A stretch of 64,000 nucleotides of DNA, taken from Ascidia mentula. Lineage: Eukaryota; Chordata; Ascidiacea; Phlebobranchia; Ascidiidae. The notes below the pieces were generated by a model. That model was not told the origin of the DNA. It was given only the letters and a program-made list of their open reading frames with translations, and did not search any database. The DNA lies in assembly GCA_947561715.1 (NCBI GenBank), contig OX387198.1:5642001-5706000 (forward strand). Direction: 5' to 3'. The position numbers and the translations under genes were made by a program. Positions 1-63,691 of this stretch are shown here, piece by piece (the first letter of the stretch is position 1; every line of letters starts with the position of its first letter).

Positions 1-1124
1 TCCCAATCCTATGACAGTGGTTTTGACGCCTAAGGCAGCTTTTGATGTTGAATATGACGTTGTTTCCAAAGTGGTCAAATTCATCGAGACTTTCGTCGTG
101 GCTGTTGTGACTTCCGTGGAGTTTGGTTGTTCTGTAGCTAAGAAAACAAGAATATGTTTACGCGCTTTTGTTCAGACAGCATTTTATATACAGAGCATAT
201 TTTTTGTCACCTGCTGTTGAGATTTGTTGTAGTTGCGAATTGGTGGAAGTTCTTGCATTTTCTGAATACGTCAGCCAATCTATCCAAAATCCTGAAGAAA
301 GAAAAACACGTTGTTTGTGAAGTTCAAACATTACGGTTATTCATAAAGAAGCTTACCAGTCGTATTAATTATCCAATAGTCAAACAAAAACCTTCCACTG
401 GCGTTTTGAGAAAGAAAAAAGTAAAAATGATCGTTCACTGATTGATTCTTTGAAATGTGGAAAGTTTCGCTGCAGTTATACTTGTCTTTCCAATACCCAT
501 GAAATGAAATTTTGGTTGGGAAATTGTTTGTATAAATGTAACACTTGGTATTGTGGCTTGTTCCACAAAGATACTGTTGTTTTTGTCCATATCCTGCATT
601 TTGTAAATGCAATTAAAAACATAAGAAAATATTTTATTAATTTGTACCTCCAGGTAGTGTCAGCATATCTACGCAGTTGCAGTGCTTGCTGCTTCCGTTG
701 CAAAACGCAACATCGTCCGACACCTTCTTTTCCATTCGTAAATATCTAACTGCAATAACCATGACCTCGTTGGCGAAGTTGACGTTGAATTTAAACGTGC
801 AAAAAATGGTTGAATTATGTTCGCTGCCGTCAAAATTCGGCGACATTATCCTCCCTGACTTGTAAGTTGTTGTATTTGGGTCACAGCAAAACCCTGCAAC
901 AAAGATGTTAAACAATTAAATTAATAAAAAACTTAAACTGGGGTTTAACATCGTTAGGCTTACATTTAGCCAATGTTATTCCCACTAAGGATCATTATAA
1001 AAACGCTTCGCCCGCAATAAACGTACATTCTGCGGGCTGGGGCATTTTGTCAATCAAGACAATTGAACTTACCGTAACATACGATGGATGCCATGACTGT
1101 CGTAAGTAAGTGAATCCTTGCCAT
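1..1124 (-). CDS. R1: CUB-domain type I membrane receptor, 3' end cut by window
   Basis: Exons 1073-1124 (signal peptide starting MARIHLL), 648-893 and 357-593 (two halves of one CUB domain), and <1-137 (Thr-rich stalk leading into the membrane segment). The transmembrane end and the cytoplasmic tail lie beyond the left edge. The CUB signature is clear: Cys pair, a GRIMSPNF-like strand, a YLCG strand, and a closing strand of GRFLFDYW type. All introns are GT-AG and phase 1. R1 is a recent duplicate of R4, which matches it along the whole visible length including introns, with few changes and one codon less in the first CUB exon. The likely role is a cell-surface receptor; the ligand is unknown. 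Seen: exon structure and domain. Inferred: receptor function. Confidence 0.85.
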
Positions 1125-1394
1125 TGTATCTACAAAAATCTAGAAAAATATGTAATGCAAATAATGGTGAGCTAAATACAAGTGTAAAACACTATTATCC
1201 AAGTTCTATCTGTTTCCAAACAACAATTGTTCACATACTGTACGTACTAAAACATGACTTTTTCTTCACGCTTTTCAACATTGTTAACTCTGCCACAGAA
1301 AGGTTTATTTAATTATTGTAGATTATGTACAAAAACTGCATTCAGTCTGCCCACTCTTCACTGAAGATACCAACTGATACCTTTAATGCTGAGT

Positions 1395-1560
1395 TTAAAG
1401 AGTGGCGAATTTCTTGTCAAAGGAAATGGCGTCACAACTTACTTTTCCCGGTAACGAAACTATGGGCGTGTTGTGTGTAACAAAAGGCGGCCCTGTTGGT
1501 GTCTGCCAGAGGTCGGGTCTGCTTATTAGGCATAAATAGTGGTCAGAGTGACGTTTATTT
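1395..1560. promoter_or_regulatory. Conserved block upstream of R1
   Basis: About 320 bases before the R1 ATG lies a stretch (core 1449-1530) that recurs upstream of R4 (8769-8850, recent duplicate), and in diverged form upstream of R6 (13483-13560) and R8 (18196-18260). Shared elements include GTAACGAAAC or GACAACGAAA followed by GTGTTGTGTGTAA and TGCCA-AGG. The constant position before each start suggests a promoter or enhancer part. An open minus-strand frame crosses the R1 and R4 copies, but has no start or domain. Confidence 0.45.
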
Positions 1561-1907: not shown

Positions 1908-3417
1908 TTAATCTAAGTTCATATACACGTGCTTCTGTAGCTGCATCGGTTTCTCGTACGGATTTTCTTGACTTGTTTCCGCATTCGTGTAAGATTGTGC
2001 ACTTTCCAGCGATGGCGATTCTAACATACAACATAACCATGAGAACCATGTATACGCGATCATAGGAAGTTTGTAAAATAATATTTACCTGGAACTGATC
2101 CGAGTTTTACCTGTTGGCGTTTCCTCCTGCAAACAGTTTGTAGCTGTAACAATTGTGACGTATTACCCAAACCAAACGCTCACCTGATTAAAAGCAGAGC
2201 AGCAATAATAAGGACAAGAGAAATGAATGCTGCAATTACACCTCCGATTATTACGGAATGGTCTGCTCGTTTTGACGGCGCGTTGCTAGGATTTAAGTTT
2301 TGTGAGGACGGGGTCGATGTTGTCATATGTGAAAATAGACCTAAAAGCAACGTTACGTAAATTGATTTTTATTGTTATATTTAAAAAAACGGTGTACTTG
2401 ACGTCGTCACGGTTGAGGTAACAAGTTTTCCTGTCGTGCCAGACTGAGAAGAAGTCGTGGGAATCACAGTACTTGTTGTTGGAACTACTGTCGTTGGCCC
2501 TTTGTATAAAACAAAACTAAGTAAATACTCAGATTAGGTCACGACAATTGCTTTTTTTACCATACCCATAATGTCAGTTATTTCGTACAGCAAGCTGAAC
2601 CCGCGCTGATTGACGATTTCGTCAGAGTAGAACAAAATCTGGTATGGCATCTTTCCGCTCCTGAGCGTCCTGAAATCCCCGCATCCATACTTGGTCTTCA
2701 TATTTCTCTCCTGTTCCATCCCGATTGTGTTGTTCGTTAAGAAATAGCACTTTTTGCTGCTTGTCAATCCGCAAAGGTAGACTTCCGAAGGACTTTCTGT
2801 AATTTGATATCACAGAGCTTTTATTAGGTTGTATATCTGACAACATTCTTTCGCCGTGCTAACAATTAATATCTAGAAGGCAATTTTGACCACTATGCAA
2901 AACCATGCGTAGTTTTCAGTCAAGAGTGCTAAAATAGTTGAGCAACTTGGTGGAAACTAAACGGTAACAATAAAATCGCTGCAAACATCTCTAGCTTATT
3001 TATCATAGACTAGGATTTTGCATCTAACCGTTCAGCAGTGTGAGGTGGTCGTAACAGAGGGAAGCGTTGCCTTCGCAATACGACCCTGCACAATGTTTAC
3101 TTTTCTGCAGCTCGAGAAAGTCGATGACAACCACTATAAACTGTTCGGTCGAAATTTGTGGCAGATACCACTTGCACGCTTGTTGTGGCGGGTATGTTTG
3201 GTTATTCCCGTAATTTGGTGTCGTTATGTTTCCCTTCGTGTTCCTTATAGTTCCGAAAGTCGTGTTGCATGACAAGTCGTTGCACCTGGCCTTGCCTAAA
3301 ACGTGAAATTAGTTATGCTAAAGTAGCTCGCATACCAGCAGATTGTACACACTTACCGATCAAACAGCAAAACACGAATAGATAGACGATCCGGAGATAC
3401 GGCTTCAGTGTGATCAT
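1908..3417 (-). CDS. R2: CUB receptor, 322 aa, with a tail shared with R5
   Basis: Exons 3357-3417 (signal MITLKPYLR...), 3029-3295 and 2566-2796 (CUB), 2398-2499 (Thr/Ser/Val stalk), 2184-2340 (more stalk, then a membrane helix of about 24 residues ending in LLLIR), 2089-2126 (basic juxtamembrane RRKRQQ), and 1908-2020 (tail). Phases are 1-1-1-1-2-1. The tail holds three tyrosines in QSYTNA (YxN, Grb2-type), NPYEKP and VYMNL contexts. The tail exon differs from that of R5 by one residue, while the CUB domains are clearly different genes; similarity to the R5 region stops near 2108, inside the juxtamembrane exon. An AATAAA signal overlaps the stop codon. R2 looks like a chimera made by duplication. 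Function as a tyrosine-signalling receptor is inferred. Confidence 0.86.
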
Positions 3418-4148
3418 TTTTTAGTAAGAACAACGTTATTTTAGAACAAATCTGACATTCAAGAATATATAAAATACAACGATAAAACTTGCCAAACAAT
3501 TATGGCATCTGTCTGCCTAAAACTTGTAACCAATGCCAACGTAAAGATTAAGTTTTTGCGGTCTAACTACTTTTCAACATTCTACCTGGTTGCAACAGCA
3601 ATAGTTGGTGTCCTAACCGCAACGGGGGTTAATGGTCATTCATTTGTTAGCAAATGTGACGACATCTTTTCTAATCGAATTCATCCATATAAGTTTATTA
3701 CACCTGGGTGACTAAGAAGAGCATCCGGCACGTAGGTTGTTGCTGGTTTGTCTGAATCAGCGGTATGACAACAAGTGTGTTTAGTCTGTCTCTGATTAAG
3801 GGCGCTTTGCTTTGTTTAACCTTATGGTGGTCGAGATTGTGCACTTTTATAGCCTTTACCAATGAACACCTAGACACTTAGCAGATTACCAATTTTGTTC
3901 GCATTTCATAAAACGTCATCATAAACCCGTCGTAATTGTGGGCGACCTTGTAATATTCAGTTACTGATGTACCAAATATAAGTTGTATATTATGTTTTAT
4001 TCAAAAACTTTAGTTTGGTCGTTAAGATTGATTTCACGTTGAAAGCAAGCAACATGCACTTAATTGAAACAATAATATATTTAAATTCTTTTAAAAAAAC
4101 ATAAATAACTCTCAAGGCATTTACAGCACGTTGTCAACCGTTTATTTT
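3418..4148. other. Spacer R3-R2
   Basis: About 730 bases with no coding exon I can support. It should hold the R2 promoter (right of 3417). The AATAAA just left of the R3 stop would end the R3 transcript at its start. A short plus-strand open stretch at 3502-3711 has no supporting signal. Confidence 0.5.
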
Positions 4149-5798
4149 TCATTTCGGTGGTTTATGGACCACACTGTACGTTACGTCATCTTGCGCCCCG
4201 TTTTCAACGTCAACTTCCATAGAGTTGTATAACTCGTTGTCGACGATCTTCTTTTCTCCTTTGTTTACAACTGCGTAGACTACGTCGCTTTGTGACGTAG
4301 TGTCGGATGTATTTTGGCGTGCTGGACCCTCAGCTACTGGAAAATTTTCTGTTTCTCCATGATTCTCTGGGATGTTGTTGAAAGCTACCGTTATGGGTGA
4401 ACCGTATGTGTTGGCTGTCGTCTCATTAAATGGCTTGCGAAGGTGCTGTCGCTTCAGATATTTTCGCCTGTAAGAAGGTGGACTCGACGTTGGATGTTTT
4501 TAACTTTCGCTGGCGCAATTCATACCTCATAAAAACCGCAAGCAGGACAAGCAGAAAGATTCCAGCAACTGCTCCGGTTACAGGACCGATCCAATCAGAG
4601 TTTGTTTCCTCTGTATTCGTGGTCACGTCTGTTGAGGTGATAGAGGTTATGTCTGTTGAGGTGATAGAGGTTATGTCTGTTGAGGTGATAGGGTTTATGC
4701 CTGTTTCGTTGATAGGGATTATGTCTGTTGCGGTGCTGGATACACGTGATGTATTGAGAGTTAGAGCTGTAAAATACATACGATGCAAAGTTATTTTATG
4801 ACGTAACGGTTTTCCCCTCTGTCCAGTGTGCAAAATTTACAGGCGTATCTGCATACTGCTGGTAATACGAGTAAGAATGATTGCTGATTCTGTCAGGAAT
4901 ACAGCTAGTGGCAAGTGTTCTTTCAGAATCATTTTCTTCGCCGTTTCGGACGCAAGTTAACAGTTATATACTGACCAGGAGAAGGTGTAGTGATGGCTGT
5001 CGTTCTTTGGGTTGAAGCCGATGTGGTGGAGATCAACGCTTTAATGTATAACTCTCTTGTTATTACCAGCAGTGAAACCAAGCATTGTTTTTACTGCACA
5101 GTATTAGTATCGATGTACCTGTTATGTCCCGAATGTGATAATGCAGGTCAAAACCCCGATAATTAATGTTTTCGTCGTCGTCGGAATAAAAATACAGTCT
5201 GTACGGCTGTTTAGTGGAATGTAGAACATTTTTGATGTTGCATGAAAAGTTCTGCATTAAATCATCCGCTGTTTCTTTTAGGACTGTATTGTTTCCAATG
5301 ACATAACAGAGTTTACTGCTTGTGTTTCCACATATGTAAAGCTCTGTAGAATTACCTACAAATTTTATGTAAAAACATAAAATTCGCCACCATTGCAAAT
5401 TACATTGTCCTTTACCTGGCAGTAAGGTTAGATGGTCGACACAAACCGTGATATTTCCCTCACATAAATTTTTCTTGCACGATTCGGGTTTTTGTATCTC
5501 CAGAAAACTAATCACAATTACCACAACTTGGTCTAAATTGATTGTTGGTAACTCCCATGTACATGATTGAAGTGGGGGATAGATTTTATTGCTTCCGTAG
5601 TTCGGGGAAGTTATTCTACCAAACGCGTCTGTAAGTTTTCCACTTTGTGTTGCGCTGCATGTTAAATTCACTCCTTTGACTTCCACTGTAAACAATAGTT
5701 TCTTTAAATTAGAAAACATAAGTTATCGAGAAGTCACAACATATTTACTTTGTTCACTTACACATAGCAAAACTTGACAATACTAACATCGTTAACAT
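4149..5798 (-). CDS. R3: CUB receptor with two canonical ITIMs, 388 aa
   Basis: Exons 5762-5798 (signal MLTMLVLSS), 5416-5685 and 5119-5355 (CUB, closest to R5 and R7), 4976-5038 (stalk), 4526-4766 (stalk of 8-residue Ile/Thr/Ser/Asp repeats, then the membrane helix VTGAVAGIFLLVLLAVFM), and 4149-4467 (tail of about 106 residues). The tail has VVYAVV and VTYSVV, both matching the ITIM pattern V/I/L/S-x-Y-x-x-V/L/I, 33 residues apart between tyrosines, with ELYNSM (YxxM) between them. By family knowledge, paired ITIMs recruit SH2-domain phosphatases, so R3 is probably an inhibitory member. An AATAAA signal starts within a few bases of the stop codon. The start is the only ATG before the hydrophobic leader. 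Confidence 0.88.
4628..4735. repeat. 24-base minisatellite coding the R3 stalk
   Basis: Four 24-base units (4628-4651, 4652-4675, 4676-4699, 4700-4723) and half a fifth. The first two are identical and the others drift. Each codes eight stalk residues of ITST/DITS type, so copy-number change would alter stalk length without breaking the frame. Confidence 0.85.
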
Positions 5799-6595
5799 TT
5801 TTCTTGACTGAAACACTGGCGTTAAACAATGCATGATATAACAGCATTACATGTAAGCTTTAATTAGACCAGGACGCTGTATTGGGCTCCTCCACTCTGA
5901 TTTTGTACCCTAATACTGTGAAAATACAAACAATATTTGTACAACATTTTTTGAGTCTACACCGACAGTGCTTTCTAAGCACTTCTTCGCTTGTTTTGCT
6001 GGAGTCATACAATGTTAAATGCGGTTACATGTGACGTATAGTATGATTCACCAGGTAATATGTAGGCGGTCAAAACATTTGACAACAAGACCCTATAGTA
6101 GCCATGGGCGAAATAATCCCCATGAATAGCTATGTTCTGTCTCGATTGAAGGACTTTAGTACAATGTTTTTTTTGTTTTTTTTTATGGGAGGGATTGGTT
6201 CGCGTTTTTTAAAGAGGCAAAGTAGTTTTCCAGTTTATTGTACGAGATGAATGCTAATCATTTATGGTTGTTCATGCTCCTGTCGTACCAATAAAAGATT
6301 GTTACATCAAACGTTACTTTCAACTAGTCAGTTTGACTTCGGCACTGCAACATGACGCATAAGTTTAAATGAGTAAAATTCGACAGTCATGCAGGGACGA
6401 GGTAGTGTTTAAAATAAGTTGATTGATACTTGGTGACGTCACAGAAAGCGAAATAAAAGTAATTATGTGGCCCTTTAGGAAACAACAGGAATGTAAACAA
6501 GTTCTCAACGACAAGAAAAATCAAATAAAAACGTCCATTTGAATGTAAGATTTGAGTTTTCACGAAAAAATGAAGAAATTTCTTGAATTCTCCCT
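5799..6595. other. Spacer R4-R3
   Basis: About 800 bases with no gene seen. Contains a poly-T run near 6162-6183 and a TGACGTCA (CRE-like) site near 6433-6440. Confidence 0.5.
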
Positions 6596-8443
6596 TTACT
6601 TGGGATTCTCGTCGCCACTGTCGGTCGCCCAAGAGCTCGCATAACTCACAGCGTCAATTTCGATGCGGGTGTACAACTCGTTTGTTTCTTGTTTCTTCGG
6701 CTTGCGGACCTGGGCATACTGGGGGATCTTATTTTGCGTTGGCGCGGGCGATTCGGCAGTTGCGTTTTCGGAAAGCTTGGTGTCCGTATAGTTGGTCGTG
6801 GAAACGACTTGTTGTAACGGATTTTCCTGTTTCGGATTCTGGCGTCTCTTCCTAAAAGTATCAGGCGAACATGAGCATCAAAACATATACTTTGATGTTC
6901 AAATAATCAACATGATTACATTCACATTGTGGCTAACTACATACGTACTCTTGTGTCACAATAAATTTCTCAACAGTTTGTATATCAAGCAAAAGTTTCA
7001 TCCACAGTTATGTTTATCATCACTGATGTCTGCCCAGTATGTCAAGAATATTGGCTTTCTAATAAGGAGTATAGTACTTGCTGGTGCACTGTCATTAAGA
7101 GTAGTCAGCTCCAAACTCTTTGCTCCTAAGATGGTTTATCTTAGTTGCTTGGAATTTGGTTTATGTCTTGATATTTTTCAACATTGGATTTGTGTTGAGC
7201 ATTGGGATGTAGTAGCTATGTCTTTTTAAGTTGGACATCTCTACATATTCACAAACCTGCATAGAAGGATGACAACAAGGATGGTGGCAAACCAAACTAT
7301 TGCTCCTATTGCAACTCCCAATCCTATGACAGTGGTGTTGACGCCCAAGGCAGCTTTTGTTGTTGAATATGACGTTGTTTCCAAAGTGGTCAAATTCTTC
7401 GAGACTACCGTCGTGGCTGTTGTGCCTTCCGTTGAGTTTGGTTGTACTGTAGCTAAGAAACAAGAACAGGTTTACGCGCTTTTGTTAAGGCAACATTTTA
7501 TATACAAAGTATATTTTTTGTCACCTGCTGTAGAGATTTGTTGTGGTTGCGAATTGGTGGAAATTTCTGCTTTTTTTGAATACGTCAGCCAATCTATCCA
7601 AAATCCTGAAGAAAGAAAAACACGTTGTTTGTGAAGTTCAAACATTTTACAATGAATTTTAAAGGAGCTTACCAGTCGTATTGATTATCCAATAGTCAAA
7701 CAAAAACCTTCCACTGGCGTTTTGAGAAAGAAAAAAGTAAAAATTATTGTTCACTGATTGATTCTTTGAAATGTGGAAAGTTTCGCTGCAGTTATACTTG
7801 TCCTTCCAATACCCATGAAATGAAAATTTAGTTGGGAAATTGTTTGTATAAATGTAACACTTGGTATTGTAGCTTGTTCCACAAAGATACTGCATTTTTT
7901 GTCCATGTCCTGCAATTTGTAAATGCAATTAAAAGCATCGAGAAATTTTTTGATAGTTTGTACCTCCTGGTAAAGTCAGCATGTCTGCACAGTTGCAGTG
8001 CTTGCTGCTTCCGTTGCAAAACGCAACATCGTCCGACACCTTCTTTTCCATTCGTAAATATCTAACTGCAATAACCATGACCTCTTTAACGAAGTTGACG
8101 TTGAATTTAAAAGTGCAAAAACGGTTGGTTGAATTATGTTCGCTGCCGTCAAAATTCGGCGACATTATTCTTCCCGACTTGTAAGTTGTTGTATTTAGAT
8201 CACAGCAAAACCCTGCAACAAAGATGTTAAACAATTAAATAGATGAAAAACTAAAACTGGGGTTTAACATCGTTAGGCTTTCATTTAGCCAATGTTATTC
8301 CCACTAAGGATCATTATAAAAACGCTTCGCCCGCAATAAACGTACATTCTGAGGGCTGGGGCATTTTGTCAATCAAGACAATTGAACTTACCGTAACATA
8401 CGATGGATGCCATGACTGTCGTAAGTAAGTGAATCCTTGCCAT
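6596..8443 (-). CDS. R4: CUB receptor, 329 aa, complete sister of R1
   Basis: Exons 8392-8443 (signal MARIHLLTTVMASIVCY), 7964-8212 and 7673-7909 (CUB with many Asn glycosylation sites), 7257-7452 (Thr-rich stalk and membrane helix VIGLGVAIGAIVWFATILVVILLC), and 6596-6851 (tail starting RKRRQ). The tail carries NYTDTKL, PQYAQV, ELYTRI and VSYASS. The Yxx-V/I sites resemble ITIMs but lack the preferred residue at -2. The 3' exon shows what R1 is missing in this window. The tail resembles those of R6 and R8, including the ending ASSWATDS. It is flanked by R3 downstream and R5 upstream. A conserved block lies about 320 bases upstream of the ATG. Confidence 0.88.
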
Positions 8444-9428
8444 TGTATCTACAATAAACTAGAAAAATATGTAATGCAAATAATGGTGAGCTAAATACAA
8501 GTGTAAAACACTATTATCCAAGTTCTATCTGTTTCCAAACCACAATTGTTCACATACTGTACGTACTAAAACATGACTTTTTCTTCACGCTTTTCAACAT
8601 TGTTAACTCTGCCACAGAAAGGTTCATTTAATTATTGTAAGATTATGTACAAAAACTGCATTCAGTCTGCCCACTCTTCACTGAAGATACCAACTGATAC
8701 CTTTAATGCTGAGTTTAAAGAGTGGCGAATTTCTTGTTAAAGGAAATGGCGTCACAACTTACTTTTCCCGGTAACGAAACTATGGGCGTGTTGTGTGTAA
8801 CAAAAGGCGGCCCTATTGGTGTCTGCCAGAGGTCGGGTCTGCTTATTAGGCATAAATAGTGGTCAGAGTGACGTTTATTTTTGAGCGTAAGTAGCGAAAA
8901 AATGATTTTTACACTGTCTGAAGAAGATGCCAATTTTTTTATTGTACTTCTTTTTTCGACTGATATTTGAAATAGTTTCGTCACAAAACAAAACAAAATG
9001 TACAAAGTATTAAAGAGATGCCAATGGGCAAGATACGGCTGACAATAAGAAGCAGAAATATTTAAGTTAAATTGGGCATTTTCTGCAATTTTCACTTCAA
9101 TAGTAAAGCAACTCATATGTTACAGTAATAGCGTAGCAAGCGTTTTTCAGTTAAACATTTTTCGCGTTGGTTAAAGCAAGACTGCAATTGAAAAAGGATC
9201 TCTACGTAATTTTCAGCATATCTTTATTTAATCTAAGTTCATATACACGTGCTTCTGTAGCTGCATCGGTTTCTCGTACGGATTTTCTTGACTTGTTTCC
9301 GCATTCGTGTAAGATTGTGCACTTTCCGGCGATGGTGATTCTAACATACAACATAACCATGAGTACCATGTATACGCGATCATAGGAAGTTTGTAAAATA
9401 ATATTTACCTGGAACTGATCCGAGTTTC
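7317..9428. repeat. Duplicated segment, copy B (R4 plus tail of R5)
   Basis: Partner of 1-2108. It covers most of R4, the R4-R5 spacer, the R5 tail exon and part of the R5 juxtamembrane exon. The direct-repeat offset is about 7.3 kb. Confidence 0.85.
8715..8870. promoter_or_regulatory. Conserved block upstream of R4
   Basis: Near-identical copy of the block upstream of R1, at the same distance from the ATG. Part of the large duplication that made R1 and R4. Confidence 0.45.
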
Positions 9429-10756
9429 ACCAACACCTGAAGTCTCCTCATTTCCCGCTTAGTTTCTTTCCTTAGTTTATTGTTCCTTGTACAAGATATC
9501 CTTAAGTAGAAATCAAAAACTATCAAAACATAAGTAGAAATCAAAACTTAATCCACGGTTGCCTTAAATACGTGTGTTTTGAAGGTGTAATTTAGTGGTG
9601 AACTGTTTTACTTACCGCCAAGCCGCAAACAGTAAAACAATCCCGAACGCCAGTACACCGATGATTATACCGAACTCAGCCGACATTACAATGTTTTTCA
9701 TGGTTCCTCGAATATGTACTGATTCTGTGTAGGAGCTATAATTCCTGGGGTTGGAAGCTTCTGCGACTTAAAGTGAAAGATTTAATTCGCCCATTACTTT
9801 CAGTTTGTCAAAGCATGGTTTGGTGACAGTTTAGGTCTGTTTTGTTAGCTACATGTGTTTATAGTGAAAATCGGGGAGTTGACTGAATGATGCTTACCTG
9901 GAAATGACGTGGAGGCAAAGGCTAAGTTTCGAGGCACAAATGGCGTGGAAGTCTGTGATGCTGTGTACGTTGATGCTGAAGGTATCAATATAACTAATCA
10001 TAATTTGTTCGAATCCATTTGAGCGATATACGCAGTGACCACATTGTTCTAATATACGTTACTTAATATTTGCATCTTCGGTTGAATATTAGCTACCTGT
10101 TATGTTCCAAATGTGATAGTTCAGGTTAAAACCCCGTTGGTTGATGTTGCCGTCTGAATAAAAATACAGTCTGTATGGCTGTTCAGTGGAATATAGAATT
10201 GTTTTGGTGTTGCATGGAAAGTTCTGCATCAAATCATCCGCTGTTTCTTTTGGGACTGTGTTGCTTCCAATGATATAACAGAGTGTGTTACTTGCATTTC
10301 CACATATGTAAAGCTCTGTAGAACTACCTACAAAGTTTATGTAAAAATGAAATTCGCCATCATTGCAAATTTCTTTGTCCTTTACCTGGCAGTAAGGTTA
10401 GATGGTCGACACAAACCGTGGCATTTCCTTCGCACACAATTTTCATGCACGATTCGGTTTTTTGTATCTCCAAAAAATTAATCACCATTACCACAACCTG
10501 GTCTAAAGTGATTGTTGGTAACTCCCATGTACATGATTGAAGTGGGGGATAGACTTTATTGCTTCCGTAGTTAGGGGAAGTTATTCTACCAAACGCGTCT
10601 GTAAGTGTTCCACTTTGTGTTGCGTTGCATGTTAAAGTTACTCCTTGCATTCCAACTGTAAACACTACATTTGTTTCAGAAAAAGCAAGATTTACTCATT
10701 AATATTTTCCACTCACCCACTGGACCAAGCAATAAAAACAACAACACCGTTAACAT
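9228..10756 (-). CDS. R5: CUB receptor, 322 aa
   Basis: Exons 10717-10756 (signal MLTVLLFLLLGPV), 10386-10655 and 10097-10327 (CUB with GRITSPNYGS and YICG strands), 9898-9975 (stalk), 9616-9760 (stalk plus membrane helix FGIIIGVLAFGIVLLFAAW), 9409-9500 (juxtamembrane, basic, KLRKETKREMRRL), and 9228-9340 (tail). Phases are 1-1-1-1-2-1. The tail has QSYTNA, NPYEKP and VYMNL, nearly the same as R2. The juxtamembrane exon is 92 bases against 38 in R2, because the duplicated sequence breaks off inside it. The ectodomain is close to R3 and R7. A stop codon overlapping AATAAA is shared with R2. Confidence 0.88.
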
Positions 10757-13957: not shown

Positions 13958-14238
13958 TCATTCCAAGTCAATGTATTCGTATCCTCTCAACGGTATCGGC
14001 AGCTCGTAAGCGTGTTCTTGATGAGTGTATGGATTTGACGTCGAATGTGGACTTGTAGACGTGGGCGGTTCTATGGAACAGATTTAATACTGAAGGCAGT
14101 TGAACTCCCGTGAAAAACATATGATATATTTACGTGAAACAGTTCCTGGTTGGACCAACTCTTTCAGTTTTCTCATTTCTTTTGTAAGTTTGCTTTGTCT
14201 TGCAGAAGATCTCCTGCAGAAGAGTTTGAGTTAATTTT

Positions 14239-14309
14239 ACCTAAGCTACGTAACTCAACACACATGTTTGGAGTTAGCCATAAAGTGTTTTGAGTTACGT
14301 AGCTTAGGT
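14239..14309. repeat. Perfect 20-base inverted repeat in an R7 intron
   Basis: Arms 14239-14258 and 14290-14309 are exact reverse complements with a 31-base spacer, inside the intron 14214-14331. The arms contain GAGTTACGTAG. It may be a small hairpin element or a remnant of a short terminal-repeat transposon; no target duplication was identified. Confidence 0.8.
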
Positions 14310-14648
14310 TTTGGAGTTAACCAGCACTTACCGCCAGAAAACGAACGATAAAATAAGCCCAACTGCCAGCACACCTATGACTGAACCTAACACAGCTGGC
14401 AGTAAGACACCTTGATTTTGTGGTTCCGTTTTGAAACGATCGTCTTGGGTGAAAGCTTCTAAAAATAAACACAATTCAACACCATTTAACGGACACAGGC
14501 AAATCATCACGCATCGTAAAGTCGTTCGTAACTCACTGTGCGTTTTTCCAACCGTTGGATTTGAAAATGACGTCGTGTCGAAGTTGTTTGGTATCTTTGA
14601 TTCGGTCACTGATGGCGTCTGTGATGTTGTTATTTCAGCTTTTGTTTT

Positions 14649-14680
14649 TGTAGTTGTTGTTGTTGTTGTTGTTGTTGTTA
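14649..14680. repeat. Triplet repeat coding Thr run in the R7 stalk
   Basis: A GTT triplet run on the plus strand, read as ACA (Thr) codons on the minus strand just inside the R7 stalk exon. R9 has a shorter, interrupted version. Slippage-prone and in frame. Confidence 0.8.
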
Positions 14681-52308: not shown

Positions 52309-54873
52309 TCCGCAATAAACTTGCAGCTTTTCGATGGACATCTTTGTCAAGAGCAACATTTCTACTTATCAATTCCCAATGCGGTGTTCTTAACTTTTAT
52401 ATTGTGGTATTTTCCTCACATATATATATGTATATTCTCTCGGCTTAATACCCGTCCCTGACGACTATTTTTGCACACGAAGATAAAAGGAGAGCTGACT
52501 TCCCTCATTCGAAAGTAATTCATCTTCTCCGTGCGCGCACGTCCGACTTCCGAACCCGAGCAACATCGTACCGTGTTGGCACTTGGTTTTGGTAAAAACT
52601 TCCGGCGATCGCACGCTTCTTGCCGTCTGTATGCTGGTCTATGGTTACAAACAATACCATGCGAGAGACAGGGGTCAAATTCTGGTTTGAATGCAGCAAC
52701 CACTTTATAATGGAGTAAACTCGATGACATATAATTGTCAGACCGCTGGGCACAAATTGTCAGACCGCCTCTATGCTGAATGTTTCGTAACTGTGAACAT
52801 TGTGCCGAATGCTTATCTAGTATATAGACTATATAGTTTGATTGATATACTGCTGTTTTGCGCGTTTTCGCTGGATGCAAGGGGCTGTAACTCCAGCCTT
52901 GTGTACGTGACATATTAGTGTTCCCCTACGCACCCAAGGATCTTTGTCGGTCCGATTTTGACGCCTGGTGGCGTGCGGGGAAGCATCATAGACCACTTCC
53001 GCCACTTTTTTTTATTTGTTGCTGACCTACCAATGTCGTAAAAGTGCGAAGTCATTAAGTGAAGGTCAACTTGTGTCGAACTGCACGTAATGTGCAGTTA
53101 TACGTCACAAGGTTATACGTCATAGGGTCAATCGCAACCAAACTGAAAATATGGTGGAGTAATATCGACCTATTAACTTGTTGCCAAAAAAAATGGCAAC
53201 AGACACTGAACAATGCTTTAAACAGATACTGAAAAACTAACAAAAGTTGCACAAAACCCTTGGTTTAAAAATCGAACATTTTTTTGCGCAAAATGTATTT
53301 CTATGAATAATGAGGCAAAAATCGTTTCAAGTTTCATTCACCATAAACGCAGTCAAACTTGACTTAAACCAACTTCGAACCTAGCGTAGAGCAGGATTAG
53401 ATTTTTGGTGCATCAATCCAGGATTAAAATATAATCCCGGATAGAGAATACGACAATCTGGAATAATTCCACGTTTAGCGGTGGATTAGCTTGATTAAGG
53501 ATTGAGGTGTTGTATTATTCAATAAATGCATGATCCATGAGGAATGACTTCCGTATGGTGGGAACGTCCATCTGAGTAGTCGGTTACTAAATGTCAAGCT
53601 CGACATGACCCGTAGTAACCCAACGAGATATGAATATACCATCCTCCGCCGACAATGTTGATGTAACATATCCGTCTCCCATCATGCGATATGCTGTAAC
53701 GAGAAGCCTGGCGGCATATTGATATATGCTGATGATAGCTGTACACGTTTCATTGCTTGCTTCCGTAGGTGTCTGCGGCTTTATGATCAGTGAATAATAA
53801 TAGCTCATGTCGATTTGAGTTCCCAATTTATTTTGGTATAAATTTGAGAGACATACTTACAAAATGTTGAGCTAAAACAATGAAAAGCTTATCTGAGAAC
53901 TTTGAAATCACGCAAAATGATATAAATTACTCACATATGTATATGAGATATACGCAATGTAGTATTCCAAATCTTGAACATTTTGACACTAATCCATCTC
54001 GGACAATTCGGGGTAAATCCTGGTATTTTGCAAGCGTGTCAACCACTTGTTTGGCTGTGCTCAATCAAATGAAGTATTAATGTTCTAAAACAGCTTTTTT
54101 GATCGCCACTTCTTACTACTAACGTATTTAAAATTTTCGCAAACTTTCGTGTGTTTAGATTACGACTGAAGTATTTCAAGGGTTATGGTGACCCAGCATA
54201 CGTGTCTGTGAGCGTAATTTGCGTGGTAGTACGGATGCACGTCTTGTTGTATTTTGTGTAACTTTGGCATTCTCTTTACGACTCATACATTTGGTCATGC
54301 GAATTTTGTTTACCTTTCCACGTTTTTTTTTTGTTTTAATTACCACTGTATGTGAAAGCGTCATGGTAACTTATAAAACTTGGATCTTTTTCTGGAATAT
54401 GTTTTCATATGCAAGCACGGCCTTCTATCCACTATACAAAACACTCCAGCATTCCCTGGCAATAAGAAATATAAATTGAACAAAGAACGACCATGCGAAA
54501 CTTCGATACTTAACAAAACAGGATACATTACAGTCGATGAAACATATTTGTGAAGAGAAATTTGACAAGAAAAAAGGGCAATTTACTCGCTTACTTGCAA
54601 TCAATTTGGATCGAAAATTTTGCTTCCGTCTTATTCAAAAGAAGCAGATTGTCTACGAGGCATTGTGTTCAAGTAGTGATAAACAGTAATTGTCATGTGT
54701 ATGTTTCAGCAACAGCGAGAACAATCGTCTTAGCAACAGTACGGCACAGTCTCACAGTAAAGTCATGTGGCACGGTTTTGCCGCGCTGCCACATGTCACA
54801 CAGAGGTTATTGCAAAATATACTCAATATAAATTCTCTGTCGCCACGTAGCGGACGTAAAGCCACGCTCTCTC
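52309..54873. other. Gene-free stretch between the CUB-like and FN2 parts
   Basis: About 2.6 kb without an exon I can support on either strand. A TTGTCAGACCGC motif occurs twice within about 30 bases near 52737-52770. Minus-strand open stretches at 53475-53826 and 52416-52913 have no splice or domain support. It marks the border between the two receptor types. Confidence 0.4.
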
Positions 54874-56877
54874 TTACGTTTCGGCGAAATTGCTACCTCT
54901 GCTACCGAATCCTGAGTCGCTGGTGACGTACCGAACTTTATCCGGAGTCGATTCGTCGACCATCATCGGCGCCGCATTGTCATCTGTCGGCGCTGCAGCC
55001 TATTGAATACAGTAGACTTGCGTAACATAATAAACACGCAGGCAAGTGATCCTGCAACTGAGAATTGAAAATGTCAACTTACAACTTGTATTTTCTCGTG
55101 GTTTTCATTCAATTTCGTCTTTCCATTGGAAAGGGAATGTTTATCAACCATTGGAATCCCCGTTTCCTTGTCCGTGGCGATGTCTTTCGCTTTCTCTCCA
55201 GTCTGGCGACGTTTTCTGTTAAAATGAGTTTACGAGTGTCGATGACGATAAAATTTTACAGTGAAAGTAATTAAACCGCTACAATTCAAACGTTGTCATG
55301 TAATGTTTCACAAAAAACAGACCAGTGGACAATACCTTAAATAAAAATAAACTGCTGTTACGACTACCGCCAGCACAATCAGCACCATCAAAGAAATTAG
55401 CATTGGTATTGTTTTGCTGCTTGCTGTATTGGTTAAAGCAGTTTGCGTTGTTTGGTCTGTAAAAAAAATACGTTGGGTTTAGATACAGTTGGCAGCAAAT
55501 TATTTGTAACATACACCGCTCGGATACAGCGTATATTACACAAAAATTACCGTTTGCCTGCTTTCCTTGTATCTTCTGATCATAGGCTGTTGACTGTATA
55601 ACATCGGTTGAAATTGAAGCGGATTTCTGCTGCTTCGCGACATCTGCAAAATCGTAATATGAGTGTTTTGGATTTGTATTCAATTTTGAGACACACGAAA
55701 AAACCAGTGACTTGTGAAGCGCACCTAAAGCTGTAGTTTCTTTGTACTGGGTTCCAATCGACGTGCTAATATTCGGCTGTAGTGTGATGTGCTGACCTTC
55801 TTGTTTAGACGTCATAGACTGCGGTGTAGCCGTGGTAGTACCAGCGGTAACGGTATTTCCTCTCTCCGTCGCTATCACGACGTTGTCTACTGACCCAATA
55901 GTGATGGAATCAGATGTGGTTGAAATTGGGGTTTTCGTTGTCGGGTTTTGTTTTGTAATGGTGGAGATTGTGGTGCTTTCTCCAGTTGTCGTTATGGGCG
56001 AAGTTGTCTCCGAAATAGTCGGCCCAGCAGCTGTAGTAACTTTCAAAATTTTAGGACTTCTTGAAGTGGATTTTGTAGTTGTAGTGCGCAACGTGGTGGT
56101 GGTGGCGGTGGTGGTGATGGCGGCTGTCGTCGGTTTAGGTGTTGTTGTGTAAATTTTTGTCCCATTCGCTGGACATTCGCCACATTTTCCATATTCTTTC
56201 CCACTGGTGTAATTACTCACGATGGGACACCAGTAGTAGCTTCTGAGGTAATTTGTATAATGAATACAACTTGTGTGGTTATGTCCGTGTTCGTCTACGT
56301 ACGGCCAAACGCACTGCTGGCCATCAACGGTACATTCTGCGCAGGGAAAAAAAAACATTTTTGATTTTTCGATAAAAGTAGGTGACAGTTTTGTAAGGCA
56401 CACACCCTACCTGTTTTGGGGGGAGGACATGCATCCAAGCAGTAACTATAGTCCACATTTTCAGTGCTCGACGTAACTTCTGACTTAATTCCACACCATT
56501 TGCCACGAAAACTAGCAATACACCTGTTATATTGCTTGCCCTTGTATGTAAATGGAAAGACGCAGTCGATTCCACTTCTGGTACATGTTCCTTGAAATGT
56601 AAAGAATTCATAGTTTAACTATTCACACATACACAACGGGCCTACGGCAACAAGATTAGATCATCACACAGCAATCTTAATGTAAAAACCCACGAGGCTT
56701 TACGGAGGTCGTTGCTAAAGGAGACTGCATAATTCATGGATGAGAACACCATCGTACGATTTCTAGTGACGCAACCAAGCATCCAGTGTAATCAAAGGCT
56801 GACTTACTGTTTGCACTTTCCACATTTCCTTCGCACACGGCAAAAACCGCAACAATTACTAAAGATGTTGAGAACAT
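54874..56877 (-). CDS. R21: receptor with two fibronectin type II domains and mucin stalk, 444 aa
   Basis: Exons 56808-56877 (signal MFSTSLVIVAVFAVC), 56411-56590 (first FN2 domain: CVFPFTYKGKQYNRC, KWCGIK, DYSYC), 55725-56336 (second FN2 domain with CVWPYVDEHGHNHTSC and YYWCP, then a Thr-rich mucin segment of about 145 residues), 55551-55643 (stalk), 55336-55456 (membrane helix MLISLMVLIVLAVVVTAVYFYL), 55083-55215 (basic juxtamembrane and tail) and 54874-54999 (tail end). The last intron is phase 0, unlike the CUB genes. The tail has few tyrosines (RYVTS) but a DSGFGS motif. FN2 domains in other proteins bind collagen or glycans; the ligand here is unknown. Close to R22 and R23. Confidence 0.87.
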
Positions 56878-58212: not shown

Positions 58213-60174
58213 TCAAACGGCTTGCATGGCCTCGTCGACACCAGAGTCTGGCGCCGAAGCATCGCTGCCTTCTTCACGTTTCGCTTCAGTGCTTTGAGCA
58301 ACGGCTGCGGTCTGGAAACAAGGAAGTCGCCGCAGGCAATTGTGATATTGTTCCAACTAACCGTTTTAAGCAAAAAAATAATTTTAACAAAACAACGTGT
58401 CTGTTGAATCTCGGCACGACTCGTCAGTAAAACTTGAGTTTCTGTAACATCTTCTACAATGTTAAGAGGTTATCTCTGTTACTGTTTAACTCGAGTTGCT
58501 GTTTAACTCTGAATGGAAGTTAAAAAATAACGCTTTTTGTGTGGTATCGAACTTACTGTTTGCTGCATTAGTGGCAAGGCTGTTTCGGCATTTATTTCCC
58601 GGTCAGAGTCTCCTTTGCACCCGCCACACCTGCTGCAAAAATTACAAAAACTTTCTCTGACATTCATTGACATGCAACGAGTGGAGGTGAGCACTTTGTC
58701 AAACTACATATATACTTACGACGTTACTGGCTCACCTCTTGCAACAACAGAAGACCACAAAAAATAAAAGCACAGCGACTCCCGCCGACATGGCCACAAT
58801 TATCCAAAGCAGACTGCTTTCAATAGGTGGCGCAGTTGAGTCCGTTGTCGGTGTCTCCATGTCGGCGTCACGATGAACATCAGAATCTGCCCAGTCTAGA
58901 CCAACGTTACAAGCTGCATTAATGTTTAGATCATAATGTAGCAACATAGTTGTTGTCGATGACTAAATGAGGTATAATAAGATTCCCAAAGTGTATGTAA
59001 CAGCCTTTTATAAAGAATATAGATTTGTGTCCAATATATTATTTCATGCCCTGCTAGACTACAAATAAAATGAATTGTGGTCATTTTCGGTATTATCAGG
59101 TCGGACTAAACCTTTAAAAAAGTTATTTCACATTCTTACCACTATTTTTTGTTCCATCGCGTGTTGCAACATGACTCGAATCTTTTGTTGAGAAGGCGTG
59201 GTAAATTGGCGTTGAACCAGTCTGATCGTCGAAGCTCAATCGTTCATTGTCAGTCGTTTTACTGCGTGGGGAGTTTGTCGCAGAAGTTTGCTGCTCAGTT
59301 GGTGTCGTGCCAGCTATTGTTTCATGTTTATTTGACGGGGTTGTCGACAAGTTTTCTGTGGTAGTCTCCGCGGCTTTACTGCTTGGATCTAGTGGCTCGA
59401 TCTGAGCCGAAGTGTGAATAGCTTCTACAGCCGTCGTGTATTCTCCTGCCGTTCTCATTGCGTTAGCGATAGTTGATACAAATCGACTTGCGTATTCTGT
59501 TGTCGTAGAAACGTAATCCGGGTCGTGCCAGGGCCACACTGACGAATACAGCACCGGGCCACCTTCAGGGCACGTGTCCGCGCATTTGCCATTCTCGCGG
59601 CCACCTTTAAAGTTTTCGACGATGGGACACCAGTAGTAGCTGTTCAGAAACGAACTGTAGTATATGCAGCTCGTGTGGTTTAAACCATTATCATCGACGT
59701 ATGGCCACATGCACTGAAACCCCTCAACGGTACATCCTGTGGCAATGAAAATATTAGAAGAACGAATTTGAGCCTTTTCCATATAAACACAACTTGCACA
59801 ATGTTCCTACGCATCTTTACAAGAAAAATGTGCAAGAAAGGCGAAATGCAAGCAGAGCGGGCTTACTTGATTTTGGGCATTCTATACAATAACTGTAGTC
59901 CACGTTTTTTGTTGCCTCGGTTATTTCTCGTTTTATCCCGCACCAGGCCCCAGCAAAACTTCCAATACAGGTGTTATATTGCCTTCCTTTGTAGAGAAAG
60001 GGAAACACGCAGTCCACCCCGCTTTTGGTGCAGGTTCCTGCCGACAAAAATAAACTGGATGTTTAAACCAGTAATATGCACTCAACTAATGCAAACTTAC
60101 GTACGTTCGGAAGCTAATACAGCTCTCCACGAACACGCCACAAGCAAAGGAAAGTAAAACGACCAGTTACCCAT
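58213..60174 (-). CDS. R22: FN2-mucin receptor, 396 aa
   Basis: Exons 60105-60174 (signal MGNWSFYFPLLVACSW), 59867-60037 (first FN2: CVFPFLYKGRQYNTC, AWCGIK, DYSYC), 59140-59736 (second FN2: CMWPYVDDNGLNHTSC, YYWCP; then a Ser/Thr-rich stalk of about 145 residues), 58736-58913 (stalk and membrane helix LLWIIVAMSAGVAVLLFFVVFC), 58557-58632 (Cys-rich juxtamembrane) and 58213-58311 (tail end). The end of the helix and the start of the tail hold CCCK and CGGC, possible palmitoylation sites. The tail has no tyrosine motif but a DSGVDE sequence in the place of the R21 DSGFGS. Two alternative acceptors exist for the last three exons' starts (58630 or 58633; several near 58905-58914); all keep the frame. 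Confidence 0.84.
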
Positions 60175-62439
60175 GTTTACCACTAGCCTACATAACCTGA
60201 ATATATAAAAACCAGTACCACCTTCTTGTACATGTGATTTACGATATGAATATCAAATTATTATATACGGTTAAAGTTACGGATCAAGTCGTTTTTCTTT
60301 TACCTTTCTGGAACAGCCTTAAATAACACCACAGAAATACTCTGTCCATACTCTCACTTGATTTAGTTTTCAGTTTCTACGCGTTTTGATACACGAGGTT
60401 GCAACTGCTGAAATTCTCGCCTAGTAACTCTTCTTTACATCTTGAAATTCAAGTCAATCCTCTAGACCCGAGTAACATCAACATTTGTCGACTATTTGCC
60501 CGACCAAGCATTCGCTTATTACAAGAAATCGTGTAGCTGCGTTCGGCGGACTTGCTTGTAAAATTGCTTATCTTTAAAGCGATAAGGAAACACTTCCAGT
60601 GATCATAAGAGCTCTGGTCTCACGGTTTTGGACCGCTTCCATTTACAGACGTTCTTGGTAGACCCACCTCAAATACAAACTGATTATTTTGAATTCTGGA
60701 GACCGACAGATTTTACCCAAAAAAGATTTTTTATACGTAATTTGTAAAACTATACAAAACACGGTAGAACTTTGAATTGTTTGGTGCTGTCATTTGCCCA
60801 AATCCTCCACGACCGTATCAAAATGAAACATGTGACTACCTTTAAGTATAGTTTTAAAGTTTGCCGAACATAATTAGACTTTTGTATCCGACGTTATGTA
60901 CTGTTTGCATAGTTTCAGTATCTGTACAAAACCTCAACATAATTCGCTACATATGTCTTTCGATCAAAACAAACTAGTTTCGCTGTAACGCCATCCTTAC
61001 AGTCCAATGTTCGATCATGTAATTACAATGCGCACAAGGAACTTATTTCATCCGTCCTTCGTGACCTTCCATGTCGTCGTAAAGGTATTTGGCATTTGAT
61101 GGCCTTCCTTACCAATAGGCCAAGATACTTTACCTCCGTTGCAGCCATTGTGTGAAGCGCTTATGTTTGTCAACACAGTAAAGTCGTTCGTTTCTATGAT
61201 GACCACCTGTCATCAGAGTTGTCGCTCCAGATCTTGCAATATTGTAATTCGCACTGTGAAGGAATTGTCATAAAGGCGTTGCATGGAATGATATTACCGC
61301 TACAACATGGATCGCAAAACGGTTTCTCAGTTCATATCATGCAACAGTCTTATTCAACAAGGCGCACAACAAAGTTTTCCACAATTGCTTTGATCCTTCG
61401 AGTAGTTACAATAACCGGAAATTGGTTTGGAAATGACTGGAATTTCCACGAAATTTTGTTCGGTCTCCTGACCACAAAACAATCGCGTTGGGCGGTTACA
61501 ATTTCTCATTCTGTGTTTCTGTGCTGAGAACAAGCATGCAGTACATTTCCATTACCATGTTATAGGCTATACGTTACTATAATTTGTTAGAAACATAAAG
61601 TTAGAGGCTTCTAGCTTCAAAATACAAACCAATTCCAGAAATTTGCGGTCGCAGAGAAAAATACTATGCCTGACCGAGAGCCAGATTCTTGTACTGTTAA
61701 CGAGCAAGTTTGACTGTCAAAATATGTTTTCTATATTGGTTTATGTTACAACTTGTAATCTTAAATATAAATTTTGTCGCACAATCTATCAAGTGGCACT
61801 GCAAAGCAATAGTAGTATTGGGCAGCAGTAAACCTATGCACGCGCCCGCTGCTCGATCGATAATAGTTTGTTACTGTAATGGTTGTCGCAGAATTTTAGC
61901 ATAAACTTCGTTGTGTGCACTGCTCGTTTTTCGACTGTTTATACCTCCAGGAAAACTGGGCGAACTTTTCTTTCAGTTATTTTGAATGTTATACCAGTTT
62001 TCGAGTTTCAAAACCAGCCCGAAGTTAACTTGCCTTCCTGTCTAACATTTTCCGCATTGTTGTTCGTGGTTTGCTTGCAACTTCAGACGAAAACATTGTT
62101 GCTATATTTGGGTTCGTCAGTTGCATGTGAAACCCTCTTGTGTTCCTCACACGCAATTACGTTGCACTGCGTTGCTGTTATAGAGTTAAAAAGTGTAGCT
62201 TTCGGCAGCCACGTTACAGCTTTGAATATGGAAATTCAAAGTTTTGAGTGGATGTCATTTCTCTTTTTATGTTCCAGTATTAGCGAAATACATTCAAATT
62301 CAGTCCACAATATACAGCATATGTATGTATACGTATATATATATACATATGATGATTTAAGTTGAATTAGTTTGAACTTCCATTATGGTTGATTGTACAA
62401 CATCAGTAGTGCCAATATCTTAAAAATAAGTCATAATGA
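60175..62439. other. Stretch between R23 and R22
   Basis: About 2.3 kb where R23 membrane and tail exons would be expected. I find no hydrophobic exon with proper splice sites on the minus strand. A 160-codon plus-strand stretch (61883-62365) is hydrophobic but has no splice, domain or family support. Confidence 0.4.
62315..62352. repeat. AT-rich microsatellite
   Basis: Alternating TATG/TATA/CATA runs between R22 and R23. Low complexity only. Confidence 0.7.
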
Positions 62440-63691
62440 TTAATTGGCGTAATATGGTATCAGTAGCATGGGCAGCAGTAGAATTTGTTGACTGCGGTGT
62501 ATCCAATGGTCGACCGAGTTGGTTGTGGCTGTAATACGGTTTGTAGGACTTATTGGGGCCACAATTTTCCAATGGTGTTGCGCTGCTGTTGTTGAATTCA
62601 AAGAGCTTTGAACAGTGCTTAATGTAAGGTTACTTCTTGTGGTCGATTTTGTAGTTTTAGTGCGTAATGTGGATATTGTGGTGCTTTCTCCAGTTGCCGT
62701 TATGGGCGAAGTTGTCTCCGAAATAGTCGGCCCAGCAGCTGTAGTAACTTTCAAAATTTTAGGACTTCTTGAAGTGGATTTTGTAGTTGTAGTGCGCAAC
62801 GTGGTGGTGGTGGCGGTGGTGGTGATGGCGGCTGTCGTCGGTTTAGGTGTTGTTGTGTAAATTTTTGGCCCATCCGCTGGACATTCGCCACATTTTCCAT
62901 GTTCTTTGACATTGATGTAATTACTCACGATAGGACACCAGTAGAAGCTACCGAAGACAGTTTTATAATAAACACAACTTGTGTGGTTATGTCCGTGTTC
63001 GTCTACGTACGGCCAAACGCACTGGTAGCCATCAACGGTACATTCTGTGTTAAAAAAAGTATTTTTGATTTTTCGATAAAAGTAGGTGACAGTTTTGTAA
63101 GGCACACACCCTACCTGTTTTGGGGGGAGGACATTCATCCAAGCAGTAACTATAGTCCACATTTTCAGTGCTCGACGTAATTTCTGACTTAATTCCACAC
63201 CATTTGCCACGAAAACCATCAATACACCTGTTATATTGCTTGCCCTTGTACGTAAATGGGAAGACGCAGTCGATTCCACTTCTGGTACATGTTCCTTGAA
63301 ATAACAATAAATCACATTTTTGGGGGGTTTTCTTCTTGGTACATGGGTCGGGCACTTGACCAGTGCTGCAAATCACGCCCATGGTTTTACATTTACAGAT
63401 CGTGGGTAGGTTGACACCAAGCGATTATATTGCCCATTTCTATCAGTATGTGAATAAATTTCGTACTAACGTAGATGATTTTGCGTTCTTTCTTGCAGTA
63501 CTTTATAACCTTTATGACCAGTTGTACAGAAGAAAGAAAGCTTTACTTTGTTAGTCAGTTGTTTTGCTACTCATTACGACGCAATTATACTAGAACAAAA
63601 GATATTGAAAACTTTACTTACTTTGCTGTGGTACCAAACTTGACTCAGAGATTGTCAAGAACATGCAAAGTAACAAACAAAACGGCAACAT
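62440..63691 (-). CDS. R23: FN2-mucin gene, near copy of R21, 3' part lost or unresolved
   Basis: Exons 63622-63691 (signal MLPFCLLLCMFLTI; 70 bases, the same size as the first exons of R21 and R22), 63115-63294 (first FN2, nearly identical to R21) and from 63044 leftwards (second FN2 and Thr-rich segment). The mucin segment follows R21 to about 62690, then diverges, and the frame stops at 62440-62442. A Ser/Thr-rich reading continues in another frame just before that stop, which suggests a frameshift. I find no membrane exon or tail in the 2.3 kb to R22. It may be a truncated duplicate, a secreted form, or have distant 3' exons that I cannot see. Confidence 0.62.

Follow-up and report, generated by a model that had tools for sequence, protein, structure and literature searches.

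We analysed a 64-kb stretch of chromosome 2 of the ascidian Ascidia mentula (positions 5,642,001-5,706,000, hereafter the window), in which gene modelling placed 23 receptor units, R1 to R23, all on the minus strand (Table 1). Twenty are of CUB type and three of FN2 type, in agreement with an earlier note made from the window's sequence, and the array is larger than that note described. It continues at least 45 kb beyond the left edge of the window, which R23 crosses, and 17 further units (F1-F17) reach to about -45,000 for a total of about 40. Window position 1 is C2:5642001 and coordinates below 1 denote the leftward extension. The 20 CUB-type units comprise 12 clear cases, six apparent distant relatives by profile (R4-R8 and R11) and two of uncertain ectodomain (R14 and R15).

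The models came from a simple gene finder trained on repeated open reading frames (ORFs) and bounded per gene, the transmembrane helices being completed by hand. That all genes point one way was borne out: the four biggest of these ORF families (24, 8, 7 and 6 members) lie entirely on the minus strand, the plus-strand families that exist being smaller (at most five members) and overlapping duplicated DNA. The coding score was 1074 for the minus strand vs 115 for the plus strand, a figure biased by a model trained on minus-strand ORFs.

CUB and FN2 units share a common intron-phase plan, in which the joints of the ectodomain and stalk are in phase 1 and the one behind the helix, before the tail, is in phase 2. 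Phases were checked in 13 units, of which F17 has two extra phase-2 joints in its ectodomain and the R21 row is erroneous in omitting a first exon of 4 nt. The modelled introns of the cluster number 136 in phase 1, 66 in phase 2 and 26 in phase 0, and the corresponding values for the right-hand plus-strand neighbour are 30, 34 and 87. The proposed plan of signal peptide, one ectodomain module, stalk, helix and tail needs correction in several units: a hydropathy scan gave no signal peptide for seven (R4, R5, R6, R8, R10, R17 and R21), no helix was found in R1 and no ectodomain in R14. The single module was wrong for the FN2 units, since each of R1-R3 has two FN2 modules.

A Pfam search with the CUB (PF00431) and fn2 (PF00040) profiles, a check that the earlier note had suggested, covered 17 of the 20 window CUB-type units (R5, R6 and R14 were left out). 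Nine scored above the curated CUB cut-off (R9, R10, R13, R16, R17, R18, R19, R21 and R22), R12 fell just under it and seven gave no CUB match (R4, R7, R8, R11, R15, R20 and R23), whereas FN2 was above cut-off in all three FN2 units. R12 and R20 align with the clear CUB set, and among six flank units scanned F10 and F3 exceeded the CUB cut-off. By Pfam, profile and predicted fold the main set belongs to the CUB family, the R21 ORF folding as a CUB beta-sandwich, and its best relative with a solved structure is, by sequence profile, cubilin. An extra CY...C pair follows the CG of the CUB core in all 11 aligned main-set sequences. There was no Ig-fold match above cut-off in the 26 protein entries of window and flank, R11 having a sub-threshold match to the transglutaminase Ig-like domain (14.3 bits, cut-off 26.6). 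Low-scoring matches to RIFIN, Stevor, TMEM154 and viral membrane proteins look like stalk and helix composition and were set aside.

The CUB domain of the array is split by a phase-1 intron after an L-x-L-P-x-G stretch. The second set of ectodomains (R4-R8 and R11 with flank units F8 and F15) has the same break after LPDG and is matched to the clear CUB set by hhalign at 96.9% with an expectation value (E) of 1.6e-10. The best match of this set in the PDB (E 0.3) is not meaningful, and R4, R7, R8 and R11 have no Pfam CUB match. CUB domains read at two other loci of the genome (L004 and L008) have their break in phase 0, a few residues ahead of that in the array, and the four CUB loci read outside the array look like ordinary multi-domain CUB proteins.

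The array contains 27 pairs of duplicated DNA of at least 150 bp, none inverted, the largest being 7.3 kb at 94% identity. Some duplications break inside genes: R22 combines its own ectodomain with the tail of R19 (97%, 37 residues), and the tails of R16/R18 and R15/R17 are more alike than the rest of these genes. In the CUB cassette of R19 and R21 exon 1 is 91% identical, the 58-60 nt intron 88% and exon 2 84%, and the four stretches that flank the cassettes score 0.60-0.65 vs 0.60-0.61 for shuffled sequence. Duplication of entire genes followed by ordinary divergence would hardly leave an intron 88% identical between unalignable flanks. The simplest reading is that the two CUB exons, together with the intron between them, behave as a cassette that one gene acquired from another by transfer or conversion. 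F1, which duplicates R21, shows the same cassette pattern with R19, and R17 (coordinates approximate) shares a somewhat wider unit with R19.

The consequence is near-identical ectodomains on different signalling tails. The first CUB exon is 86% identical between R19 and R21 and the tail 29%, the values for R17 and R21 being 84% and 17%. Under the shared cassette R21 has two immunoreceptor tyrosine-based inhibitory motifs (ITIMs) and R19 has YxN and YxxP. Because near-identical ectodomains carry different tails, the likeness to paired receptors is stronger than in the first reading.

Tails were examined in 34 of the 40 units and all have at least two tyrosines; the motif counts do not cover R1, R2, R8, F2, F3 and F11, whose tails are unclear, and the tails of R22 and F12 are partial. 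In 26 non-redundant tails the largest excess over shuffled tails was that of NxxY (33 vs 9.7) together with Phi-x-NxxY (15 vs 1.8), followed in turn by ITIM (15 vs 4.6), YxxPhi (51 vs 23.9), YxxP (19 vs 8.5), YxN (19 vs 9.8) and YxxM (7 vs 2.5). None of 2000 shuffles reached the ITIM count, 5 reached that of YxN and 32 that of YxxM. Motifs with the spacing of immunoreceptor tyrosine-based activation motifs (ITAMs) were likewise above shuffled tails (1 of 2000). By unit, 11 of the 34 have an ITIM, 6 an ITAM-spaced motif, 14 YxN, 8 YxxM, 18 YxxP, 25 NxxY and 31 YxxPhi (I, V, L, M or F); the immunoreceptor tyrosine-based switch motif (ITSM) is in none. For the 20 window units the counts are ITIM 4, ITAM-spaced 5, YxN 8, YxxM 5, YxxP 13, NxxY 12 and ITSM 0. 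Nine ectodomains taken as a control had no excess of ITIM, YxxPhi, YxxP or YxN. The tails do vary in tyrosine motifs, ITIM-like ones included, as had been proposed, and a Phi-x-N-x-[LI]-Y motif (DNELY, RDNIIY, NNILY) recurs across unlike ectodomains.

ITIMs are linked to SHP-2, ITAMs to Syk, YxxM and YxN to PI3K/Grb2-type partners, and NxxY to Dok-type partners with phosphotyrosine-binding (PTB) domains. Candidate readers of these motifs are present in the genome: tandem SH2 exons of SHP-2 type, which match human PTPN11 best (E 1.4e-87), and, 12 kb apart, two intronless Syk-type kinases with tandem SH2 (L030 and L031, C67:7964600-7978600), one matched to SYK and ZAP-70 and the other judged by reading. 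The suggestion of clustered inhibitory and activating receptors finds its counterpart in the ITIM tails, in the ITAM-spaced, YxxM and YxN tails and in these SHP-2-type and Syk-type genes, but not in the helices, since the cores of all 35 hand-picked transmembrane helices are free of charged residues.

The genome assembly searched comprises 195.8 Mb in 79 contigs and represents one haplotype. Of six genetic codes compared on its mitochondrial COX1, only the ascidian one, in which AGA/AGG stand for glycine, preserves the conserved glycines, and this marks the genome as that of a tunicate. A search with R19 (E up to 10) gave strong relatives at the array only, matches elsewhere having E values of at least 0.12, and searches with F8 (minus its stalk) and F17 had the same outcome. 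A protein search with R19 found no homologue at E 0.01 among 1315 candidates, and a nine-receptor profile gave eight matches at E <=1 among the best 8000 candidates (best E 6.1e-4). Five of these were read: four look like chance similarity in the Thr-rich stalk and helix, and the fifth is a bivalve CUB protein (E 0.085). No Phallusia or Ciona counterpart was found by a search that requires shared 5-letter words, which distant relatives could escape; a Syk control search recovered both genera, so tunicates are present in the database.

A giant nesprin (SYNE) gene on the opposite strand apparently encloses the whole array. On the plus strand a CH domain and nesprin-1 spectrin repeats lie to the left, and spectrin repeats, nesprin-1 repeats and a KASH domain to the right, these parts running from about -84900 to -45613 and from 67498 to about 134600. 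Between the end of the last modelled exon on the left (-45,613, at a clear donor) and the start of the first on the right (67,498) is a gap of 113 kb, most of which is taken up by the array. As the 900-residue left model nearest the array has no Pfam match, the left edge of nesprin is presumptive. Placement in exactly one nesprin intron was rejected as a claim, because the phases of the exons on either side do not agree; one or more exons must therefore be missing from the model, and the array possibly spans more than one intron.

Given these data, we consider it probable that the locus is a tunicate paired-receptor complex built on CUB and FN2 folds, most likely a recognition system of blood cells. 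About 40 tandem type I membrane receptors would bind ligands outside the cell through CUB, or through tandem FN2 at one end of the array, and in nearly all units the tyrosine tails would signal inside the cell. Duplication and exchange of the CUB cassette would put the same binding face on different tails, and cells could then weigh ITIM-like (SHP-2), ITAM-like (Syk), YxxM/YxN (PI3K/Grb2-type) and NxxY (PTB/Dok-type) signals. Blood cells would use the array for recognition in innate immunity or in telling self from non-self. The array, its folds and tails, the cassette pattern and the SHP-2 and Syk-type genes are what the analysis shows, and the sequence supports the paired-receptor reading; phosphorylation of the tails, partner binding, ligand sharing and the immune role are what we infer.

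Receptor clusters that combine inhibitory and activating members are known from Ig and lectin folds. KIR, LILR, SIRP, PILR and Siglec form tandem arrays with shared ectodomains on different signalling ends, gene conversion and ITIM tails. The present array is likewise tandem, with shared ectodomains on different tails, probable transfer or conversion of the cassette between members, and ITIM tails. KIR, LILR and their like are built on Ig or lectin folds, and activating KIR and LILR have a charged helix and a short tail. The array differs in having CUB and FN2 domains where KIR, LILR, FcR-like and NITR receptors have the Ig fold, and no charged-helix, short-tail activating members were seen (0 of 35 helices charged, at least two tyrosines in 34 of 34 tails). 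CD200R, an inhibitory receptor of Ig fold with few genes, signals via NPxY and Dok adaptors, and its NPxY may be comparable to the recurring Phi-x-N-x-[LI]-Y motif, which by analogy resembles a PTB/Dok docking site. The CUB domains of cubilin, C1s, MASP, PCPE-1 and neuropilin have the same sequence profile and fold as those of the array, but these are multidomain proteins without an array-type tail.

A CUB- or FN2-based cluster of ITIM/ITAM receptors was not found among the open-access literature matches listed, the closest of which concerned the fester family and fester co-receptors (FF/FcoR) of Botryllus schlosseri. That source (PMC12065747) describes clustered type I receptors whose tails have an ITIM, a hemi-ITAM (hemITAM) or a YxxI/L/V core, with inhibitory and activating members inferred and haplotype variation reported. 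They share with the array a tunicate setting and a clustered multigene family of type I receptors, and the tails are comparable (ITIM in 11/34 and YxxPhi in 31/34 array tails, no search having been made for hemITAM), but the FcoR ectodomains are IgV, sushi and IgC2 rather than CUB or FN2. Botryllus is colonial whereas Ascidia mentula is a solitary phlebobranch ascidian (PMC11109543), which makes it unlikely that the array governs histocompatibility at colony fusion as in Botryllus.

A bolder version of the paired-receptor reading, which we hold only tentatively, is that an analogue of the leukocyte receptor complex arose independently, with CUB as its fold. Some 40 self-signalling receptors would sit in giant nesprin intron space, the cassette would try one specificity on inhibitory and activating tails, and Phi-x-N-x-[LI]-Y would add a PTB/Dok-type code to the SH2 code. 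What appears new is the CUB exon-intron-exon cassette and the layout of the same ectodomain with a different signal on a CUB fold. If the array fulfils, with CUB and FN2 domains, the role that clustered Ig and lectin receptors have elsewhere, the tyrosine signalling logic would be conserved and the binding fold replaceable. The setting is a solitary tunicate, and tunicates are the sister group of vertebrates. The array also offers a clear and testable example of how a single ectodomain comes to be joined to unlike signalling ends, and it makes the locus a candidate for recognition in a solitary ascidian.

Several observations weigh against the paired-receptor interpretation. The gene models are computed, with GT-AG splice sites by construction. 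Six ectodomains (R4-R8 and R11) seem to be only distant CUB relatives, R14 lacks a detectable ectodomain, that of R15 matches nothing, and four of the six flank units scanned (F8, F13, F14 and F17) have no CUB match. A strict ITIM is in only 11 of 34 tails and 4 of 20 in the window, the R3 tail has none of the counted motifs, and the R2 tail model, which is uncertain and outside the counts, has no tyrosine. NxxY is mildly raised in ectodomains as well (12 vs 6.8, reached by 28 of 1000 shuffles), Phi-x-NxxY not being raised there. In the ITAM-spaced tails of R16, R18, R20 and R23, position +3 after the first tyrosine is Val and the gap is 11 residues long, features that depart from the usual ITAM pattern. 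Finally, gamete or adhesion receptors would also be expected to form a fast-evolving array.

As ascidians have self/non-self gamete systems, the array might diversify to recognise egg coat or sperm in self-sterility, not pathogens or cells. The ratio of nonsynonymous to synonymous change (dN/dS) was below 1 in 10 of 12 ectodomain pairs and above 1 in two duplicate pairs, R5/R6 (1.42) and R1/R3 (1.51). These two pairs would suit gamete receptors, but their values are based on 28 and 26 changes and carry no significance test. Among the tail pairs two rows with R15, read in a wrong frame, were dropped, which leaves 8 of 10. ITIM, ITAM-spaced and YxxP tails together with SHP-2 and Syk genes fit haemocyte signalling better, and we regard a gamete role as rather unlikely.

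YxxPhi and NxxY are also sorting signals for clathrin adaptors. Their presence in 31/34 and 25/34 tails, and cubilin as nearest relative of solved structure, would be consistent with endocytic or scavenger receptors whose CUB cassette captures soluble ligands as in cubilin. However, endocytosis alone would neither select the excess of YxxP, ITIM and ITAM spacing nor put one ectodomain on unlike tails, which makes this reading unlikely; a receptor could serve both functions. Adhesion or guidance receptors of neuropilin/CDCP1 type, duplicated by chance and with no recognition role, would account for a CUB fold common to neuropilins, but about 40 units in one place, ectodomain exchange and the failure to find a Phallusia or Ciona counterpart at limited search sensitivity make this very unlikely. 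That the units are degenerating duplicates, mostly pseudogenes with tyrosine motifs by chance, is suggested by R1 without a helix, an orphan tail exon, R14 without an ectodomain and F11 with an ectodomain only, but is highly improbable given tail motifs in excess of shuffles and dN/dS below 1 in 10 of 12 ectodomain pairs.

Table 1 Receptor units and related features of the window (positions in window coordinates)
Feature	Position	Strand	Details
R1, FN2-type	62440..63739	-	candidate signal peptide ORF 63617-63739; two FN2 modules (33.9 bits); Thr-rich stalk; no helix found
R2, FN2-type receptor	58213..60166	-	candidate signal peptide; two FN2 modules (31.6 bits); stalk; helix 58736-58913; tail uncertain
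R3, FN2-type receptor	54425..56877	-	signal peptide; two FN2 modules (35.7 bits); stalk; helix; phases 1-1-1-1-2-0-2
R3 tail	within 54425..56877	-	2 Tyr; no counted motifs (0)
R4, divergent CUB-type receptor	49965..51926	-	helix ORF 50900-50977; tail 7 Tyr
R5, divergent CUB-type receptor	46720..48294	-	helix in ORF 47394-47546
Orphan copy of R4 tail exon	45708..46154	-	92% identical; alone between R5 and R6
R6, divergent CUB-type receptor	43223..44812	-	duplicate of R5
R7, divergent CUB-type receptor	40490..41915	-	tail ITIM LVYNQL
R8, divergent CUB-type receptor	37190..39140	-	3' end uncertain
R9, complete CUB receptor	35054..37055	-	CUB 28.4 bits; phases 1-1-1-1-2; tail 5 Tyr including SAYVDI
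R10, CUB receptor	31995..34019	-	CUB 22.1 bits; helix in ORF 32316-32483; tail 5 Tyr
R11, divergent CUB-type receptor	28520..30472	-	tail YINV, YVNE, YEAP, YMNM
R12, CUB receptor	24959..27533	-	CUB 20.4 bits (cut-off 21.4); tail 8 Tyr
R13, CUB receptor	22896..24659	-	CUB 30.0 bits; tail 5 Tyr
R14, helix and long tail (LDNVMY)	21369..22303	-	ectodomain not found
R15, unmatched ectodomain	18903..20343	-	tail 72% identical to R17 tail
R16, CUB receptor	16131..17940	-	CUB 21.7 bits; ITAM-spaced tail YAEV...YCHV
R17, CUB receptor, R19/R21-type ectodomain	13958..15528	-	CUB 27.6 bits; YxxP tail
R18, CUB receptor	11507..13180	-	CUB 24.0 bits; vs R16: tail 92%, first ectodomain exon 55%
R19, complete CUB receptor	9228..10756	-	CUB 33.9 bits; phases 1-1-1-1-2-1; tail NPYEKP...HVYMNLD
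CUB cassette of R19 (exon, 58-nt intron, exon)	10097..10655	-	84-91% identity to R21 cassette
R20, CUB-family receptor	6596..8413	-	no Pfam CUB match; ITAM-spaced tail YAQV...YTRI
R21, CUB receptor	4149..5765	-	CUB 29.9 bits; ITIMs VVYAVV and VTYSVV, plus DNELY
CUB cassette of R21	5119..5685	-	ORF used for fold: 5117-5683
R22, CUB receptor	1908..3417	-	CUB 32.6 bits; own ectodomain, R19-type tail (97% over 37 modelled tail residues)
R23, CUB-family receptor	1..1094, on to -721	-	ectodomain 93% identical to that of R20
7.3-kb tandem duplication, right half	2104..9431	.	other half -5162..2111; 94% identical; edges near R22 and R19 tails

R5 could draw on the orphan exon at 45708-46154 for an alternative tail. 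At C69:5.37-5.40 Mb there are eight weak matches (E 0.07-0.72), all to the same part of the ectodomain of F17, the leftmost unit of the array, and they perhaps mark a related domain array. To the right of the array, from about 129800 to 164000 on the minus strand, is a Pellino E3 ligase, and the same interval and strand hold an EGF/nidogen-type gene and DPP4-like peptidase genes, assigned by reading only. A genome search that scored 150 of 532 candidates gave at least 211 matches to protein tyrosine phosphatase exons, which form very large arrays at C2:5.98-6.32 Mb, C2:4.18-4.34 Mb and C72:16.9-17.4 Mb, one of which starts about 276 kb to the right of the window.

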